A stretch of 34,316 bases of DNA from an uncultured Gammaproteobacteria bacterium (GTDB lineage Bacteria; Pseudomonadota; Gammaproteobacteria; Magnimaribacterales; Magnimaribacteraceae): assembly GCA_913042105.1 (NCBI GenBank), contig CAJWIK010000003.1, forward strand, positions 1 to 34,316, given 5' to 3'. The position numbers and the translations under genes are program-made. Positions within the stretch are counted from its first letter, which is position 1, and the number at the start of each line of letters is the position of its first letter. This document shows positions 6,376-30,757 of the stretch, in pieces. The notes below the pieces were generated by a model, which did not search any database, was not told where the DNA came from, and saw only the letters and a program-made list of their open reading frames with translations.

Positions 6376-6467
6376 ATATAAGTTAATCATATAGTAAATC
6401 TTATGAAGGTGTATATTCCAAAAGTTAAAAAAAAGAGTTAGAGTAAGGCTAATAATTGGGGAAATTA

Positions 6468-8678
6468 ATGAAGAATAAAATCTACTTTTTAGTATTTGCA
6501 CTAGCGATAATTATTTCTGGTTGTAGTAATTCCGAGGAAGAGACTATTGCTGAAAAATCTATTAATTCAGGATCTTCGTCTATAGGTCTAATAGATGATG
6601 ACAGAATATTATCTGCAGAATCTGAACCTGGAAATTGGTTAGCCTATGGAAGGACTTACGAAGAACAAAGATTCTCCCCTCTAGAGCAAATCAATAAAGA
6701 AACAATAGGTGATTTAGGACTAGTTTGGTCTAAAGATATGGGTACTAACAGAGCACTCGAAGCTACTCCAATAGTCGTTGATGGAATAATGTTTTTTACA
6801 AGTACCTGGAGCAGAGTTTATGCGGTTGATGCTTTGACAGGAGAAACAATCTGGAAATTTGATCCAAAAGTTCCCGGAGAATGGGCAAGAAAAGCCTGTT
6901 GTGACATTGTGAATAGAGGTGTTGCGGTATACAACGGTAAAGTTTATTCCGCTAGTCTTGATGGAAGGCTTTTTGCTTTGAATGCTGAAAATGGAGAACT
7001 GGTTTGGGAAGTAGATACAATAATTGACAGGACAAGAGCCTATACAATAACAGGGGCTCCAAGAGTCGCAAAAGGAAAGGTATATATTGGAAATGGTGGA
7101 GCTGAATATGGCGTAAGAGGATATGTTACAGCATATGACTCAGAGAGCGGGAATCAAGTCTGGAGATTTTATACTGTACCTGGCAATCCTGATTTAGGAT
7201 TTGAAGATCCAGCAATGGAAATGGCTGCAAAAACCTGGAAAGGCACTAATTGGTGGGAGTTTGGTGGAGGCGGAACAGTATGGAATTCAATAGTTTTTGA
7301 TCCTGATTTTAATAATTTATATCTAGGGGTTGGAAATGGGTCTCCATGGACAAGGGAAATAAGATCTCCTGGTGGAGGTGATAATTTATTTCTTTCCTCA
7401 ATAGTTGCTGTAGATGCAGATACAGGTGTTTATAAATGGCATTACCAAACCACACCTGAAGATAACTGGGATTACACAGCTGTACAAGATATGTCTCTAG
7501 CTGACATGGAAATAGACGGAGAAATGAAAAAGGTTTTACTCCAAGCTCCAAAAAATGGCTTCTTTTATGTCATCGATAGAATGAATGGTAAAGTTCTTCG
7601 AGCTCATCCTTTTGCAGCAGTTACTTGGGCGACTCATGTAGATCTTGAGACTGGAAGACCGGTTGAAAATCCAGAAGTTGACTATACAGAAAATGGTGCT
7701 TGGGTGTTACCAGGTCCTTTAGGTGCCCATAATTGGCAGGCCATGTCGATCGACATTGATGCTGGGTTAGCTTACATACCTACACAAGAAAATGCTTTTT
7801 TCTATGCAATACAGGAAGACTACAAAAAAACGGGTGTCTATAAAAGGGATCCGGGAAGATGGAATATGGGCATAGAAATGAGCTCGTTAGCTCAAAATAT
7901 TCTAAATAATCTAGAGTCACAGCCTAAACCCGGAGGCTTTCTAAAAGCCTTTGATCCCCTTACAGGTGAAACAAAATGGTCAGTGCCTATTCCACATTAC
8001 TGGAATGGTGGAGTCCTTGGTACAGCTGGTGGATTAGTATTCCAAGGAGATGCATTAGGAATGTTTTCTGCCTACGATAAAGAAACAGGTGAAAGGCTTT
8101 GGGAATTCAACACATACACCTCAATGCTTGCTCCTCCCATCACTTTTGAAATTGATGGTGAACAATATGTATCAATCCTGACTGGCTCTGGTGGTGGTGA
8201 TATGTTCGGTGGGGAACCTTTACCGCCTATAGAGGTACAAGCCTCTCTAACTTATAATAATTTTGGAAGAATGCTTACTTTCAAGCTTGGGGGTGAAAAA
8301 ACTCTCCCTATTCCAAATGTAAGGGATAAAACAATTCCTGAACAGAAACTAGTGCAAGTTAGCATTGATCAAATGCAAAATGGAGAAGGCAACTACAATG
8401 ATTATTGTGCAGTTTGTCACGGATTTATTGTTAAATCTGCTGGCGGTATACCTGACTTAAGGAAAATGTCTGCTGGTACACATGATGCATTTAATCAAAT
8501 TGTTTTAGAAGGCCTGCTTGCAAGTAATGGTATGGCGTCATTTTCAGATGTTCTTTCTGAACAGGAAGTAGAAAATATTCATCATTATGTCAAAGCAAGA
8601 GCTCATGAAGATAGAGAAGTGGCTCTTGGTAATTTGGAAGCTCCTCAATTTACTTGGTTTGGACAAGAAGAGGATTAG
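6468..8678 (+). CDS. PQQ-dependent alcohol dehydrogenase with C-terminal cytochrome c (quinohemoprotein), lipoprotein
   Basis: Periplasmic alcohol dehydrogenase using PQQ and passing electrons to its own heme c. I start at ATG 6468 (736 aa; GGGGAAA upstream) rather than TTG 6456. The signal ends in the lipobox IISGC (Cys19), so the enzyme should be membrane-anchored. Propeller repeats follow, such as VYAVDALTGETIWKFD and LFALNAENGELVWEVD. KACCDIVNRG contains the vicinal Cys144-Cys145 pair that caps PQQ. PEDNWDYTA holds the expected catalytic aspartate, and AHNWQAMSID is a further propeller signature. CAVCH (Cys647, Cys650, His651) binds heme, and Met in NGMASF is the likely sixth ligand. Length fits type II quinohemoprotein dehydrogenases. 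No PQQ synthesis genes are in the window. Confidence 0.93.
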   Translation: MKNKIYFLVFALAIIISGCSNSEEETIAEKSINSGSSSIGLIDDDRILSAESEPGNWLAYGRTYEEQRFSPLEQINKETIGDLGLVWSKDMGTNRALEATPIVVDGIMFFTSTWSRVYAVDALTGETIWKFDPKVPGEWARKACCDIVNRGVAVYNGKVYSASLDGRLFALNAENGELVWEVDTIIDRTRAYTITGAPRVAKGKVYIGNGGAEYGVRGYVTAYDSESGNQVWRFYTVPGNPDLGFEDPAMEMAAKTWKGTNWWEFGGGGTVWNSIVFDPDFNNLYLGVGNGSPWTREIRSPGGGDNLFLSSIVAVDADTGVYKWHYQTTPEDNWDYTAVQDMSLADMEIDGEMKKVLLQAPKNGFFYVIDRMNGKVLRAHPFAAVTWATHVDLETGRPVENPEVDYTENGAWVLPGPLGAHNWQAMSIDIDAGLAYIPTQENAFFYAIQEDYKKTGVYKRDPGRWNMGIEMSSLAQNILNNLESQPKPGGFLKAFDPLTGETKWSVPIPHYWNGGVLGTAGGLVFQGDALGMFSAYDKETGERLWEFNTYTSMLAPPITFEIDGEQYVSILTGSGGGDMFGGEPLPPIEVQASLTYNNFGRMLTFKLGGEKTLPIPNVRDKTIPEQKLVQVSIDQMQNGEGNYNDYCAVCHGFIVKSAGGIPDLRKMSAGTHDAFNQIVLEGLLASNGMASFSDVLSEQEVENIHHYVKARAHEDREVALGNLEAPQFTWFGQEED

Positions 8679-8679
8679 C

Positions 8680-9240
8680 TTACTGGTCTAAAATCATTGT
8701 TTTAGCAGGCAAATCTAACGGGGGCACTTCAATAAATTCAAATGAAGGGCTCCCTAATTCCGGATCCCCTTCCTGAATGTCGTAAACATCGGAATCCTTT
8801 CCTTCATTGTCTTTATTTAAGACACCATAAGATTTTTTTCCATTAAGTTGCTGACCCTCTTTAATTTTATGGAGAGCATCTTGTGCCTTCTTGTGGTTGT
8901 CATCGTTCCAGACCAACCTATAGGCTCTAGGATCACCAAATGATTTATTAAACTCATCAACTTCACTAACCCAAAGAAAAAGACTTCCTTCATTGCTCTG
9001 TGCTTTGTTAGGTTCTTGTATTACAACCCAATTAATATTAAATAGTTCAGGTAATTCTTCTGAAGTTGGCCACCCTAATATTCCCTCATACCCCTTCCAA
9101 CTAAATATATAAAAGAAAGTTAAAACAACAATACCTGTTAATTTAATCTTTTTAGAAAAACCAGTATAAAAACAAAATATCAACAACAAGGCTGAAATGA
9201 TTACGTAAGCCAAAGTCAATAAGATCCTTTCTTCTAGCAT
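8680..9240 (-). CDS. uncharacterised two-helix membrane protein, third gene of the motor-like cassette
   Basis: Not recognised as a named family. The 186-aa product has two predicted membrane helices (about 7-27 and 34-49), then a soluble region of about 135 residues rich in charged residues. That region contains YEGILGWPTSEELPELFNINWVVIQEP-type sequence and several acidic stretches. There is no signal-peptide cleavage site, catalytic motif or Cys cluster. It starts 2 nt after the stop of the MotB/ExbD-like gene, so it is almost certainly co-translated with the channel pair and may be an accessory or regulatory subunit. The helical hairpin would place the C-terminal domain on the same side as the N-terminus. 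Its stop lies 1 nt from the stop of the convergent PQQ dehydrogenase gene, with no terminator. Confidence 0.75.
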   Translation of the reverse strand: MLEERILLTLAYVIISALLLIFCFYTGFSKKIKLTGIVVLTFFYIFSWKGYEGILGWPTSEELPELFNINWVVIQEPNKAQSNEGSLFLWVSEVDEFNKSFGDPRAYRLVWNDDNHKKAQDALHKIKEGQQLNGKKSYGVLNKDNEGKDSDVYDIQEGDPELGSPSFEFIEVPPLDLPAKTMILDQ

Positions 9241-9242
9241 TA

Positions 9243-9857
9243 TTATTTAGATCCGAGTGCTTTTGTAAGAAGTCTTTTAGGGATTTGATTGGTATCAGAA
9301 ACCTCTTTATCTCCATTTACAAAGAATCTTAGAGCGGTAATCTCATCCCCTACTCCATTAAGAAAATGTTGGCCATAATAAATAAGCTCTACTGAAGGAT
9401 TTAATTTTTCTACCTTCACAGTCACGGGCAATGGTTCTTTAAAGTTAGACTTATAGTGAAGGAGGTTAATTACATATTCTCCGGTCTGTAACCCTCTTAC
9501 AGTTATTGTCTCTTGATTAATTGGACTAGAAACAACATCACCTTTCAGATTAATATTATCTGCTAGGTTTCCTCTATCATCCCGATCTAAATGCATTAAG
9601 CCTGAGTCTCTATTGTGATACCAAACTAATTTTCCCTGAGGATCCTCTACCACAGCATCTACATCATCAGGATGCTCGTCAGGCCATTGGACAGAGATTA
9701 ACACCTCGGCTTTTGTATTAATATTGCCAGATTCTTCTGAGCTATTTATCATCATAAAAGCTATTGCAAACATGAAAGCAAAACCGAGCAGTGCATTAAA
9801 GAGGAGATCTGTAAAAACATCCTGTTCTTCAGATTTCAAAAGGATTTTATTCTTCAT
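9243..9857 (-). CDS. MotB/ExbD-like single-pass protein with YfaP/DUF2135-like periplasmic domain
   Basis: 204 aa. A short cytoplasmic N-terminus leads into one helix (about 18-37) that begins DVFTDLLFNALLGFAFMF. Asp17 sits where MotB, TolR and ExbD carry the ion-binding aspartate. The periplasmic part (about 50-185) is predicted beta-rich: VLISVQWPDEHPDDVDAVVEDP, GKLVWYHNRDSG, LDRDDRGNLADNI and TGEYVINLLHY. This order (W..DVD..V.DP.G..V.Y, L.RD..G....NI, G.Y.....Y) resembles the YfaP/DUF2135 domain. No OmpA-type peptidoglycan-binding motif is present. Start and stop of neighbours overlap as ATGA with the upstream channel gene. The helix assignment is good; the beta-domain family is a pattern match that I could not test. 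Confidence 0.75.
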   Translation of the reverse strand: MKNKILLKSEEQDVFTDLLFNALLGFAFMFAIAFMMINSSEESGNINTKAEVLISVQWPDEHPDDVDAVVEDPQGKLVWYHNRDSGLMHLDRDDRGNLADNINLKGDVVSSPINQETITVRGLQTGEYVINLLHYKSNFKEPLPVTVKVEKLNPSVELIYYGQHFLNGVGDEITALRFFVNGDKEVSDTNQIPKRLLTKALGSK

Positions 9858-10468
9858 GGGTACTTTGAATTAAGGTGATTTAATGTCTGACTTAAGCTTG
9901 AATCTAATAAAAAATATTGAAATTTAAGGAGCATACTCGTTATAAGCCCAGTAAGTGTTGTGTACAAAGCAACTGCCATTCCACCACTCATGGTCGAAAG
10001 TAACTTTTGAAGTATCTGAGGATCAAAATCTCTAATTTCTCCAATTGGGAGCAGCATTAGGATAAAGCCGATCACGGTTCCAGTTAAACCAAGCTTTAGA
10101 AGAATATCTACAATCAAGTAGCCTATAGAGTGTCTATTAGAAAGTTCATCTTCAAGCAAAGATAGTTTATTTAAAGAACCATATTCGCTTTTAAGCTCTA
10201 TTTCTTTTATAAATCTACCGATTAGGGTGTTCTCATTAGGGCTGTCTATACTTGAAATCTCTTTGTCTAAAGATAAGGCATTAAAAAACCAGTGCATACT
10301 AGAAATAAAATAGATCAATAAAATCACTAAAGATATTTTGCTTTTGTCTGATTCGATAATTAATCCGAATAAACCTAAGTAATACAATAAATAAGCTGAG
10401 AAAACTATCAGGGAAAGAAGCAAAGATGCTTTCAAAAGTAAGTAATTCGGTTTTTTATAAATTAACAT
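9854..10468 (-). CDS. MotA/TolQ/ExbB proton-channel family protein
   Basis: Inner-membrane stator-type channel subunit, 204 aa with four predicted helices (about 10-38, 45-65, 117-142, 162-186). The helix 3 segment LLKLGLTGTVIGFILMLLPIG and helix 4 segment GGMAVALYTTLTGLITSMLL match the conserved core of MotA/TolQ/ExbB. They include the threonines (GTV and YTT) that line the ion path in ExbB. A hydrophilic loop of about 50 residues separates helices 2 and 3. The stop codon overlaps the start of the MotB/ExbD-like gene (ATGA), as for subunits made in fixed ratio. There is no TonB, TolA or flagellar gene nearby. The family is well supported; the work done by the complex is unknown. Confidence 0.88.
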   Translation of the reverse strand: MLIYKKPNYLLLKASLLLSLIVFSAYLLYYLGLFGLIIESDKSKISLVILLIYFISSMHWFFNALSLDKEISSIDSPNENTLIGRFIKEIELKSEYGSLNKLSLLEDELSNRHSIGYLIVDILLKLGLTGTVIGFILMLLPIGEIRDFDPQILQKLLSTMSGGMAVALYTTLTGLITSMLLKFQYFLLDSSLSQTLNHLNSKYP

Positions 10469-11614: not shown

Positions 11615-12088
11615 TTATTTCTCTCCAAGAATTAAGTTCATTTTAGTATTACCCCTTAGGTATCTATTATCATCATTCTGCTCATTTAATTCAAAACCAC
11701 AAGAAAGATATAAATTAAGAGCAGGTTTCAGAATGTCATTTGTGATCAAAAAAATCTCACTTGCTTCCCTCTCTTTCGCAAATTTTATACACCTTTTTAA
11801 TAACTGCTTACCAATTCCATGATTCTGATAATTTTTTTCAACTGCCATTTTTGCTAATTCAAATATTCCAATTTCAGTAGGTACCATTGCAGCAGTTCCA
11901 ACTACTTTGCCTCCTTTGATAGCAAAAAATATTTCTCCGTTCTTTTCCAAAACATAGCTATGAGGATTTTGTAAGATACTTAGATCCTCTTCTTCCATTT
12001 CGAAATATTCCTCTATCCATTGTCTATTAAGAAGTTCAAAATCTAATTTATATTGCTCTTGATAAGCAACTATTTTTAGATCATTCAT
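11615..12088 (-). CDS. GNAT family N-acetyltransferase
   Basis: 157-aa acetyl-CoA-dependent acyltransferase of the GNAT fold. Motif A is visible as LAKMAVEKNYQNHGIGKQLLKRC, with the acetyl-CoA phosphate loop NHGIGK. The following ASEIFLITNDILKPALNLYLSCGF matches motif B, ending in the usual CGF. No subgroup is evident, so the acceptor amine is unknown. The start overlaps the nucleosidase stop by 8 nt (ATGAATGA), and its stop is 1 nt from the SDR start, so it is fully embedded in the operon. Confidence 0.88.
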   Translation of the reverse strand: MNDLKIVAYQEQYKLDFELLNRQWIEEYFEMEEEDLSILQNPHSYVLEKNGEIFFAIKGGKVVGTAAMVPTEIGIFELAKMAVEKNYQNHGIGKQLLKRCIKFAKEREASEIFLITNDILKPALNLYLSCGFELNEQNDDNRYLRGNTKMNLILGEK

Positions 12089-12641
12089 TTAAAGAATCCA
12101 ATAATCTTTTAAAAAATATAGCACCATCTGAAACATTTTTTTGCCAGTCTGTTGATGCCTTTTCATCAGCTTTGTCACTAATGTATTTGAAGCAAAGGAA
12201 ATCTATGTCCTCAATAAGACATAATTTTGCGATGGCATAGGACTCCATATCATATAAGTCGGTATCTATGTCTTGGATAGAATTAACAAAACTGTCTCCA
12301 GTGCCGCAACTAAGACCATCTCTATTAAAACTGATATTACCAATTTGATCTAAAGGGGTTTCTCCTATTTCAAAGCCTAAAGGACTTACATCCATATCTC
12401 TTTGCTTAAATAATGTAACTTCATGAAGACCGCTCAAATCTGGACTTGATGATCCTGCGGTGCCAAAATTAATTATGTGCTTAGGCCTTTTTTCTCTTAT
12501 AGCTTTTCCTAGTGTGATTAAAGCATTCACTTTGCCTATTCCTGTGTAGACAACCCTCCATCCTGTTAAAAGGTCTCTACCGATTTCATCTTCGAGTGCT
12601 ACCGCTATTAAAGTTTCCTCTTTATTTACTTTAATCGTCAT
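12081..12641 (-). CDS. MTA/SAH nucleosidase-like protein (PNP/UDP phosphorylase superfamily)
   Basis: Predicted purine nucleosidase that would release adenine from methylthioadenosine and/or S-adenosylhomocysteine. Seen motifs: YTGIGKVNA (ribose/phosphate-side loop), NFGTAGS, the active-site DMESYAIAK with the glutamate and methionine that contact the ribose, and SDKAD with the aspartate that protonates the base. At 186 aa it is shorter than the roughly 230-aa Pfs enzymes. Its start lies within the 3' end of apt (11-nt overlap), so the adenine released could go directly to Apt; this context is the best support for the substrate. A phosphorylase instead of a hydrolase is possible. Confidence 0.82.
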   Translation of the reverse strand: MTIKVNKEETLIAVALEDEIGRDLLTGWRVVYTGIGKVNALITLGKAIREKRPKHIINFGTAGSSSPDLSGLHEVTLFKQRDMDVSPLGFEIGETPLDQIGNISFNRDGLSCGTGDSFVNSIQDIDTDLYDMESYAIAKLCLIEDIDFLCFKYISDKADEKASTDWQKNVSDGAIFFKRLLDSLNE

Positions 12642-13146
12642 AACTTAGTAAGCTAATAATTGGTACATCAAATAAATCAGCTCCACCCAGCGACTTTAGT
12701 TCAATAATTACAGCGCCACCTACAACCTGAGCATTTTGAGATTCCAGTAAATCTTTAGAACATTTCATTGAACCGCCAGTTGCCAATAAATCATCTATTA
12801 TCAGTACCTTTTTTTTATGTAGGTCAATCCTTTGCATGCTCAAAGTATTCGATCCATACTCAAGGCTATAGCTTTTTTCAACCAATTCTCCTGGAAGCTT
12901 GCCGGATTTCCTTATCATCAACGATCCAATACCCAAGGACTCTGCAACTAAAGTGCTAAATAGAAAACCCCTAGCATCAATGCCTGCAATAAAATCTGGT
13001 CTTAAAGGCTGAATGCTCTCACATAGTTTTTCTTTTACTATCTTTAAGGCTTGGGCATCAGCTAACAGAGGACTGATATCCCTAAAAAGAATACCTTTAG
13101 AAGGAAAATCAGGAAATGTTTGAATCCAATTTTCAAGAATATCCAT
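12631..13146 (-). CDS. apt: adenine phosphoribosyltransferase
   Basis: Cytoplasmic enzyme converting adenine plus PRPP to AMP. The 171-aa length is standard. FPSKGILFRDISPLLAD is the Apt N-terminal signature, GIDARGFLF is a second family motif, and VLIIDDLLATGGS is the PRPP-binding loop. It overlaps the start of the nucleosidase gene by 11 nt and follows the AGMO-like gene by 8 nt. The pairing makes a short adenine salvage route from S-adenosylmethionine by-products to AMP. Confidence 0.93.
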   Translation of the reverse strand: MDILENWIQTFPDFPSKGILFRDISPLLADAQALKIVKEKLCESIQPLRPDFIAGIDARGFLFSTLVAESLGIGSLMIRKSGKLPGELVEKSYSLEYGSNTLSMQRIDLHKKKVLIIDDLLATGGSMKCSKDLLESQNAQVVGGAVIIELKSLGGADLFDVPIISLLSYDD

Positions 13147-28387: not shown

Positions 28388-30727
28388 TTAAAACTTATAA
28401 CTTACTCTTCCCATTATTTGTCTAGGAGGTATGTATTCTATGCCTGTACCCGCAACTCCGAATACATCTGTCATGCTTGAGTTCATGCCATCCTTATCAC
28501 CCGCATTGAGAAGCATTAAATCTATACCCCATTGGTCGCCAGTGAAATCTAAACCAGTTGTGAAATTCATTATTGAATAAGAATCCACCTGATCCACTAT
28601 AGGATTGTTGAAAACCCTTTGTTGAAAATTACCACGATAAATGAGTTCGGCTGTAGTTGTGAGAAGCCCATATGGAGTATCAATATTATACTCAACACCA
28701 AGGTTAGCAGTTAATTTAGGACTTTTTGCTAATTCATTTCCTCGTAAATTTTCTTTTAAAGAGTAACGTATTGGCTCTTCTCCAAAGAAATAGAGCTCTG
28801 CTTGTAAGTTATCTAGAGCCTCGTATGAAGAAGTTATTTCAGTATCAAGATATGCCACCCTCAAATCAAATGATAATGACTCAGAAACTAGGCCGATTAG
28901 TTCAAGTTCTATACCCATCATTTCAGATTCAGGTATATTTGCTACACCACCTCTATATATATCTGGATCAGTGGACTGAAATTGCAAATTTTCGTAGTCA
29001 TAAGTAAAAGCAGATACATTCGCTCTCATGCGACCATCCATAAAGTCAGTCTTTAAACCAATTTCATAAGCATCTATCATTTCACTCTCAAAGAAAGGAA
29101 AAATTAGTTGTGGTGCTGGTGCAGCTCCAAAGCCTTCATTATCTTCTGGAAAACCGAAAGTAAGATTACTTCCTCCAGGTTTAAAACCCTTTGTATACGA
29201 AACATAGACCATAGTGTCTTCATCAACATCATGTTCGTAAGCGAGTCTTCCTGTTGTTTCATCTAGCTTATCTTGTATTAAATATTTTTGTAGACCGAAG
29301 AAGTTAGTAACATCACTAGCAAATTCGTCTTCTGTATACCTCAATCCAAAAACTATTCTATTGTCATCATCAATATTAACTGTTGCTTGCCCATATAGAG
29401 ATTGAGACTCTCTTGAAGGGTAAGCCTCTGATACAAATCCTAATTCAGCATCGAACGCTGCAAAACAAATCCCTTCAAACGGATTTGTCGCACAAATTGG
29501 GGCATGTGTATAAGGCGTAAATTGTCCATCCATCAAATCAGCTTGTTTATTATTATTTACATCTTTAACTTCATAGATTGTATTGGCAATCTCGTGGTCG
29601 AAATAAAATGCACCGAGAATCCAATCTGTATTTCCAAAAATAGGTTCATTAGAAATTAAATTAATTTCAAAAGTTGAAGTCTCAACTACAGAAGTTTCTG
29701 GTCTGTATTCAGATCTATTGTATGGAAATCCAGCCATAGGACCATTAGCATGAACATCACCGAAGTTATGCCTATCGTTATCTCGGCTTACATAAATATC
29801 ATCCTCTTGCATGCTTGCAAGAATCTTTAGATTTGCAAAACCTAAATCTGTATTGAGAATTCCAGCAAATATTTCTGAACTAAGCTCATAAGCTGATAGT
29901 GAATCTTGTCTTAGTTTTCTGGGATCTTGAGTTGAATCATCAAGACCTTTCATGGCCGCACCATTATTCTCTGCTTCAAAGTATTGAGCAAATAGTCTAA
30001 GAGTAGAAGTTTCATTTAGATCAAAAAGCCAATCAGACCTTAGAGTGGTGTGATTTGTATCATCCAAATCTTGACCATTCACTAAGTTTTCAGAAAATCC
30101 ATCCTGATCTGTGGTGACCCAAGAAAAACGAGTGGCGACGGTATCGGATAAAGGTATGTTTATTCCGCCTCTAGCCTTAGCTAAATCATAGTCACCTAGT
30201 GTTAAGTCTACTTTTCCATTTAGAGCGTCAAATGAAGGTAGAGTATTTATAACATTAACCGTTCCTCCAGTTGAGTTTTGCCCAAAAAGAGTACCTTGAG
30301 GGCCTCTTAACACTTCAATTCTATCTAGATCTATAAAATCAGTTCTTAAGGAGAACTTCGAAGCAATAAATATACCATCCATATGTAATGCAACAGAGGG
30401 AGCCGCAATAGCATTCTGATTAGTTTCGTCTCCTACACCACGTATAGAAATAATAGTTTTATAGCCTTCATTTTTTGCCACCGTAACCCCGGGAGCTATG
30501 GCACTAAGACCAACAAAATCTACTATATTTTTTCTTTCTATCTCGTCACTACTTAAAGCAGTTACCGCTTTTGAAACGTCTTGTAAACTTTCTACCCTTT
30601 TCTCTGCTGTAACAATAACTTCATCGATCACCAACTCATTTGAGAAAGTGTTTAGACTGATTGAGATTATTGATAGCGCAAGAGAAATTGAGAGGAAAGA
30701 CCTGAAAAGGGAAATTGATAATTTCAT
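28388..30727 (-). CDS. TonB-dependent receptor
   Basis: Outer-membrane active-transport receptor. I start at ATG 30727 (779 aa), with AAGGA 7 nt upstream; the track's 30751 start is a TTG inside the leader. A signal peptide (MKLSISLFRSFLSISLALS) leads to a TonB-box-like DEVIVTAEKR at about residue 35. The plug follows with ISIRGVGD, DGIFIASK, DRIEVLRGPQGTLFGQNSTGG. A barrel of about 22 strands ends in VSYKF. The carrier resembles receptors for complex organic substrates more than classic siderophore receptors, but the ligand is not predictable. An outer loop holds a Cys pair (HAPICATNPFEGIC). Probably monocistronic. Confidence 0.93.
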   Translation of the reverse strand: MKLSISLFRSFLSISLALSIISISLNTFSNELVIDEVIVTAEKRVESLQDVSKAVTALSSDEIERKNIVDFVGLSAIAPGVTVAKNEGYKTIISIRGVGDETNQNAIAAPSVALHMDGIFIASKFSLRTDFIDLDRIEVLRGPQGTLFGQNSTGGTVNVINTLPSFDALNGKVDLTLGDYDLAKARGGINIPLSDTVATRFSWVTTDQDGFSENLVNGQDLDDTNHTTLRSDWLFDLNETSTLRLFAQYFEAENNGAAMKGLDDSTQDPRKLRQDSLSAYELSSEIFAGILNTDLGFANLKILASMQEDDIYVSRDNDRHNFGDVHANGPMAGFPYNRSEYRPETSVVETSTFEINLISNEPIFGNTDWILGAFYFDHEIANTIYEVKDVNNNKQADLMDGQFTPYTHAPICATNPFEGICFAAFDAELGFVSEAYPSRESQSLYGQATVNIDDDNRIVFGLRYTEDEFASDVTNFFGLQKYLIQDKLDETTGRLAYEHDVDEDTMVYVSYTKGFKPGGSNLTFGFPEDNEGFGAAPAPQLIFPFFESEMIDAYEIGLKTDFMDGRMRANVSAFTYDYENLQFQSTDPDIYRGGVANIPESEMMGIELELIGLVSESLSFDLRVAYLDTEITSSYEALDNLQAELYFFGEEPIRYSLKENLRGNELAKSPKLTANLGVEYNIDTPYGLLTTTAELIYRGNFQQRVFNNPIVDQVDSYSIMNFTTGLDFTGDQWGIDLMLLNAGDKDGMNSSMTDVFGVAGTGIEYIPPRQIMGRVSYKF

Positions 30728-30757
30728 TAAAAATCCTTGTCTTGCAATCAAAAAGAT

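Follow-up and report, generated by a model that had tools for sequence, protein, structure and literature searches.

A conserved three-gene cassette of SAR86-like bacteria, Burkholderiales and phages that probably encodes an ion-driven membrane motor

We analyzed a stretch of 34,316 nucleotides (the window), which corresponds to contig 3 of a draft genome 1.3 Mb in size and 75% complete. The class to which the genome belongs also includes Burkholderiales-like genomes, which makes it Gammaproteobacteria as GTDB defines them, and its size and gene content suggest the SAR86 clade. The window carries three consecutive minus-strand genes, M, B, and T, in that order. Their products probably make up an ion-driven motor that has three components and belongs to the MotA/TolQ/ExbB superfamily, with a PQQ system as its client in bacteria and with a role as cargo in phages (Table 1). 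An earlier note on this DNA had described M and B as a minimal stator pair in a neighborhood that gave no hint of its task. The stator-like character and the conservation of M and B stood, but a third gene, T, makes the cassette a trio. Similarly, no Tol, Ton, Mot, or Zor profile reached its cut-off, as the note's view of the context would have it, but the neighborhood proved informative, with a PQQ-dependent alcohol dehydrogenase gene convergent with the trio. The idea of an orphan pair without context was therefore rejected, given the conservation of the trio and its linkage to PQQ genes.

Table 1. Features of the trio locus in the window
Feature	Position	Strand	Basis
M, MotA/TolQ/ExbB-family channel subunit, 204 aa	9854..10468	-	PF01618, hydropathy, conservation, clade
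ATGA overlap, M stop / B start	9854..9857	-	Sequence; M and B also closely spaced in other groups
B, single-pass subunit, 204 aa, with predicted periplasmic all-beta domain (about 50-190)	9243..9857	-	AlphaFold2 model, conservation
T, third subunit, 186 aa, predicted two-helix membrane protein	8680..9240	-	AlphaFold2 model; order after B
PQQ-dependent alcohol dehydrogenase with C-terminal cytochrome c domain	6456..8678	+	Convergent neighbor; TIGR03075, PQQ and Cytochrome_CBB3 Pfam

The M protein agrees with its earlier description as a four-helix ExbB/MotA-like channel. Its hydropathy profile contained four hydrophobic segments (residues 20-38, 47-65, 122-140, and 163-181), both core motifs were present (GLTGTVIG at 127 and ALYTTLTG at 167), and the Pfam MotA_ExbB profile (PF01618) matched with an E-value of 7e-9 (35.9 bits, cut-off 22.9). 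Phage and Bradyrhizobium-type M proteins likewise scored above this cut-off; no ExbD, MotB/OmpA, or ZorA match reached its own. Profile comparison aligned the last two helices with those of TolQ and ExbB (E 1.5e-5), placing Thr171 of M at the position of ExbB T181 and TolQ T178. This threonine was conserved in 171 of 173 M proteins, a set drawn from 193 by leaving out many short phage copies because their automatic start codons were wrong. Asp41, between helices 1 and 2, was kept wherever it could be aligned. The position of ExbB Thr148 was occupied by lysine in 72 of 83 Burkholderiales M proteins (loci L088-L167). From Asp41 to the third-helix glycine, Gly127, there are 86 residues in the window M and a median of 61 in viral M proteins, a stretch so short that the phage forms have almost no cytosolic domain.

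In a phylogeny whose references were TolQ, ExbB, and MotA from E. coli and from the genome itself (ZorA, GldL, and AglR were not among them), all M proteins of the trio grouped in a single clade (support 97/96), separate from TolQ, ExbB, and MotA. For M, this bears out the earlier distinction from the TolQR and ExbBD clades. Matches of M to RecA in a PDB search were dismissed as artefacts of tandem fusions. A scan of viral contigs with M alone returned no matches, as M is too divergent for that method.

The ATGA overlap of M and B was confirmed, B beginning inside the M stop codon. The AlphaFold2 model of B (pLDDT 89) consists of one membrane helix (residues 11-37) and, after it, an all-beta domain some 140 residues long, and Asp17 lies near the helix start, in keeping with the single-pass partner bearing an aspartate at the start of its helix that had been proposed from the letters. 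Asp17 was conserved in 187 of 192 B proteins and is among the most conserved residues, and most of the invariant residues of B fall in the periplasmic domain. Both the M and B genes were retained in about 190 loci, which, with the high conservation of Asp17, argues that the pair is not a product of chance. Strict universality of Asp17 was rejected: the five exceptions are the Bradyrhizobium-type B proteins, all five of which have Val17 and retain Asp13, one turn away. This combination, seen in L076, L077, L078, L082, and L085, may represent a shift of the ion-binding carboxylate.

B gave no Pfam or NCBIfam match above cut-off, and no ExbD, TolR, or OmpA domain was found in it. Asp17 paired with TolR Asp23 in a profile alignment, at low probability, and since the helix alone could be aligned with ExbD and TolR, B could not be placed in a TolR/ExbD tree. 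A fold search of the B model against the PDB returned no match at an E-value of 0.001 or better. The weak resemblance of the beta domain to DUF2135 (PF09906) stayed below cut-off (6 of 46 members at E-values up to 0.1, the best being 0.0039), and we know of no DUF2135 protein that is part of a motor. The beta domain of B showed no detectable homology to the B-subunit domain of any known stator. Domains like it were seen in larger proteins. A 1118-aa protein that looked by eye to be of the VIT/vWA type (L086:4083-7439) bears at its C terminus a domain resembling the one in B (E 3e-8). The profile of phrog_1735, a phage family of 673 profile positions with no assigned function, matched 36 of 46 B proteins, including the window B over profile positions 419-556, and the beta domain may also occur in this large phage protein.

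The third gene starts two bases downstream of B. The AlphaFold2 model of T (pLDDT 85) has a transmembrane hairpin (residues 2-25 and 30-54) and then a small alpha/beta domain of three strands plus a helix, after which come a disordered linker and a last strand. A KKIK sequence in the T loop would, by the positive-inside rule, place the soluble domain in the periplasm. T gave no Pfam or NCBIfam match above cut-off, and its model, searched against the PDB, gave no match at an E-value of 0.001 or better. DUF4131, which forms the start of ComEC, matched 16 of 63 T proteins weakly (best E 2.2e-4; 12.7 bits for the window T, cut-off 31.6). T is the most divergent subunit and went undetected in 4 of 80 viral loci; all SAR86-like forms (those of the window's family) and all Bradyrhizobium-type forms end in a conserved C-terminal LPxK motif, which is also found in most Burkholderiales forms and about half of the viral ones.

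Among 40 relatives examined, B was present in 19, all members of the window's family, and the whole trio occurred in the same order in 18 of 18 family loci read. B was the best conserved subunit, with a mean identity to the window of 84%, compared with 72% for M and 61% for T. The convergent dehydrogenase (626.6 bits against TIGR03075, cut-off 480) adjoins the trio in 20 of 20 trio-bearing family genomes, our own included, at 69-100% identity. In other genera of the family the genes upstream vary, and the trio and the dehydrogenase are constant. Two family members without the trio (G020 and G024) have more distant dehydrogenases alone (44-53% identity), and neither the trio nor this dehydrogenase was found in other families of the order. 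The genome also encodes TolQ-TolR elsewhere and, on other contigs, two ExbB-ExbB-ExbD sets with TonB-type genes after them (names read by eye, except for the MotA_ExbB matches), so the trio is an additional system. Elsewhere in the window, a phosphorylase-superfamily gene (Pfam) overlaps an adenine phosphoribosyltransferase-like gene (by eye) at 12081-13146, likely a purine salvage pair, and a TonB-dependent receptor-like gene (by eye) lies far from the trio at 28388-30751.

The survey of gene neighborhoods that the earlier note had suggested found the trio order to be common to the family, Burkholderiales, and phages, with PQQ linkage in the bacteria; its wide spread among phages is something that the window by itself does not reveal. 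The best 80 matches in GTDB genomes belonged to Burkholderiales or their kin, and all 80 loci had the trio in order. Of these 80 loci, 45 (and 30 of the 50 longer ones) have a PQQ alcohol dehydrogenase gene no more than 10 kb away from the trio, and three loci without one seem to carry it just beyond 10 kb, if contig coordinates correspond. Each of 16 genomes examined had one to ten copies of such a gene; at about 3.7 copies per 5.6 Mb, the chance of finding one in such a stretch is about 1-2%, an estimate that ignores kinship. M-B-T was also carried by genomes that we presume to be of Bradyrhizobium type, a label resting on a note of Bll5685 in a phage record and on general knowledge. In four of five of these loci a histidine kinase and a response regulator lie beside the trio; the PQQ cluster L081 of Burkholderiales contains a pair related to them (about 40% for the regulator). 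The linkage to PQQ genes in two bacterial lineages, together with that to regulators in a third, points to alcohol oxidation as the bacterial client, which is most probably part of the PQQ alcohol dehydrogenase system. In 79 of the 80 Burkholderiales loci, T is followed by a fourth, weakly DUF3108-like gene (e.g., L152:9196-9924). No such gene was detected next to the trio in viral loci or in those of Bradyrhizobium type; in the window's family the convergent dehydrogenase follows T in its place. In a phylum sample, 19 of 399 genomes matched, two of them weakly.

Phages of Rhizobium and Sinorhizobium matched B with tblastn E-values down to 5e-24. All six such loci that we read had M, B, and T in the same order. 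The records label these genes, p040 of phage 16-3 among them, as hypothetical proteins or by plain numbers, and some of the loci have an inserted homing endonuclease gene or other small genes. Several Rhizobium phages have it among replication and middle genes, away from tail and lysis genes. A scan of IMG/VR with a B profile gave 213 confirmed relatives. Among the best 80 of these, 75 carried the complete trio in order on a single strand; T could not be detected in four, and M was missing from one that is truncated by the end of its contig. When all genes from 86 phage loci were clustered, the trio clusters occurred in 84, 81, and 79 loci and the next commonest cluster in 23; apart from the trio, the surroundings of these phage loci have almost nothing in common. 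Terminase, portal, and head-protease genes near the trio in some loci identify tailed phages, and viral contigs with the trio reach 527 kb. In 17 of the 86 loci a trypsin-like serine protease gene is found no more than about 8 kb from the trio, and in 16-3-type phages it is directly upstream of M; it may be functionally linked to the trio. Examples are L033, L035, L036, L037, and L084 and viral loci such as L236:4012-4890. We found no PQQ alcohol dehydrogenase gene near phage trios, which indicates that PQQ is not the whole function and that the work of the trio is more general.

In an unrooted tree of B, the bacterial copies (SAR86-like, Burkholderiales, and Bradyrhizobium-type) formed one group (support 87), and the viral groups were far more diverse. 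The tree fits either a single uptake from phages or an old bacterial gene that spread to phages. A recent transfer from phages to the SAR86-like lineage is unsupported, the SAR86-like copies forming their own clade together with other bacterial copies.

By analogy with ExbBD, TolQR, and MotAB, M would form a ring, expected to be a pentamer, around a B dimer, and ions would pass between Asp17 of B and Thr171 of M, moving B relative to M. The beta domain of B, together with the hairpin and small domain of T, could pass this movement on to a client near the periplasmic face of the inner membrane; in phages, the cassette would be cargo acting on the host envelope. As phage M proteins have almost no cytosolic loop, the output would be periplasmic rather than cytosolic, and because B and T are both too short to reach across the periplasm, it would be delivered near the inner membrane. 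The trio might work on a client in the periplasm, on the envelope, or simply on the flow of ions.

Three other accounts were considered. The phage copies might encode an envelope exclusion factor that alters the host inner membrane or periplasm, for example by blocking a second phage or aiding lysis, and that bacteria later took over. Such a factor would suit a trio that forms the only shared genes of many unrelated phages, that sits amid replication and middle genes in several Rhizobium phages, and that has the trypsin-like protease nearby in 17 of 86 loci, but bacteria keep the trio stably in a core locus next to a metabolic enzyme, outside islands, and the bacterial copies form a single group with no sign of recent phage transfer; we regard this account as unlikely. 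We give somewhat less credence still to a passive channel or membrane-potential sensor, in which M and B would conduct or sense ions and T would signal. The very small cytosolic loop of phage M and the lack of conservation at the ExbB Thr148 position in Burkholderiales are compatible with it, but Asp17 and Thr171, the two residues that the motor cycle of ExbBD and TolQR requires, are nearly invariant, and the concentration of invariant residues in the periplasmic domain of B suggests that the output lies there.

A Zorya-like anti-phage defense system is very improbable. ZorA profiles were indeed the best PADLOC matches of M (E 1e-4), but M scored 11.1 bits against the ZorA profile NF033915, whose cut-off is 100, and its cytosolic part includes no extended tail; genes for ZorC, ZorD, or any other effector are absent next to the trio, and phages themselves carry it. 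An ion-driven motor is the reading that we consider probable, and the observations that count against it are Val17 in Bradyrhizobium-type B proteins, the lysine at the Thr148 position, the absence of PQQ linkage in phages, the divergence of T, and a beta domain in B that matches no B-subunit domain of the known stators.

We propose, tentatively, that the trio may be a separate motor class with its own beta-domain rotor and third subunit, spread mainly by phages, doing work on the host envelope during infection by means of the host's proton or sodium gradient, and adopted for PQQ alcohol respiration by several bacterial lineages. A function is known for few clades of stator-type motors. The trio combines a fixed and minimal set of genes with a B domain unlike the others compared, and it is spread over no fewer than two hundred phage contigs as well as several lineages of bacteria. 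If the proposal is correct, phage-encoded ion-driven motors would be a new viral use of host membrane energy. Rhizobium phages with culturable hosts, such as 16-3 with its gene p040, make the question directly testable.

A 2025 paper on MotAB and its non-flagellar relatives (PMC12505986) lists, in the part of its text that we used, ExbBD, TolQR, AglRS, and others of unknown function, and that part holds no mention of a trio of this kind. The open-access literature, within which our search mostly lay, with subscription journals and preprints largely outside its scope, yielded no phage or PQQ-linked motor genes of this kind. The GldL-GldM motor of gliding and the T9SS resembles the trio in its beta-rich B subunit; there was no Pfam match, and it was set apart by description, as GldM has beta-rich periplasmic domains and is much longer than B, and GldL has two helices. 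ZorA matches M weakly over the last two helices, but the trio differs from ZorA-ZorB in its tail and effectors, as noted above, and no peptidoglycan-binding ZorB domain was detected in B. MotA-MotB and PomA-PomB likewise have a four-helix channel subunit with a loop between helices 2 and 3. In M, however, this loop is much shorter than the torque-generating domain of MotA and PomA. M scored 12.8 bits against the PomA profile (cut-off 341), and B has a beta fold with no detectable peptidoglycan-binding OmpA domain, unlike MotB and PomB; the trio also has a third subunit.

A diverged Tol or Ton operon was rejected, as the genome has both elsewhere and M falls outside their clades. M scored 9.4 bits against the tolQ equivalog (cut-off 221) and 16.5 bits against exbB2 (cut-off 135), and Tol-Pal and TonB partners are absent at the trio. 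TolQ and ExbB have three helices, whereas M has four; the periplasmic domain of B is all-beta, unlike that of ExbD and TolR; and in place of TolA or TonB there is T, a hairpin with a short domain that alone is too short to span the periplasm. TolQ-TolR-TolA and ExbB-ExbD-TonB nonetheless present the same order as the trio, that is, a channel subunit, an Asp-bearing single-pass subunit, and a third membrane protein, and the last two channel helices with their ion-path threonine are common to TolQ, ExbB, and M.
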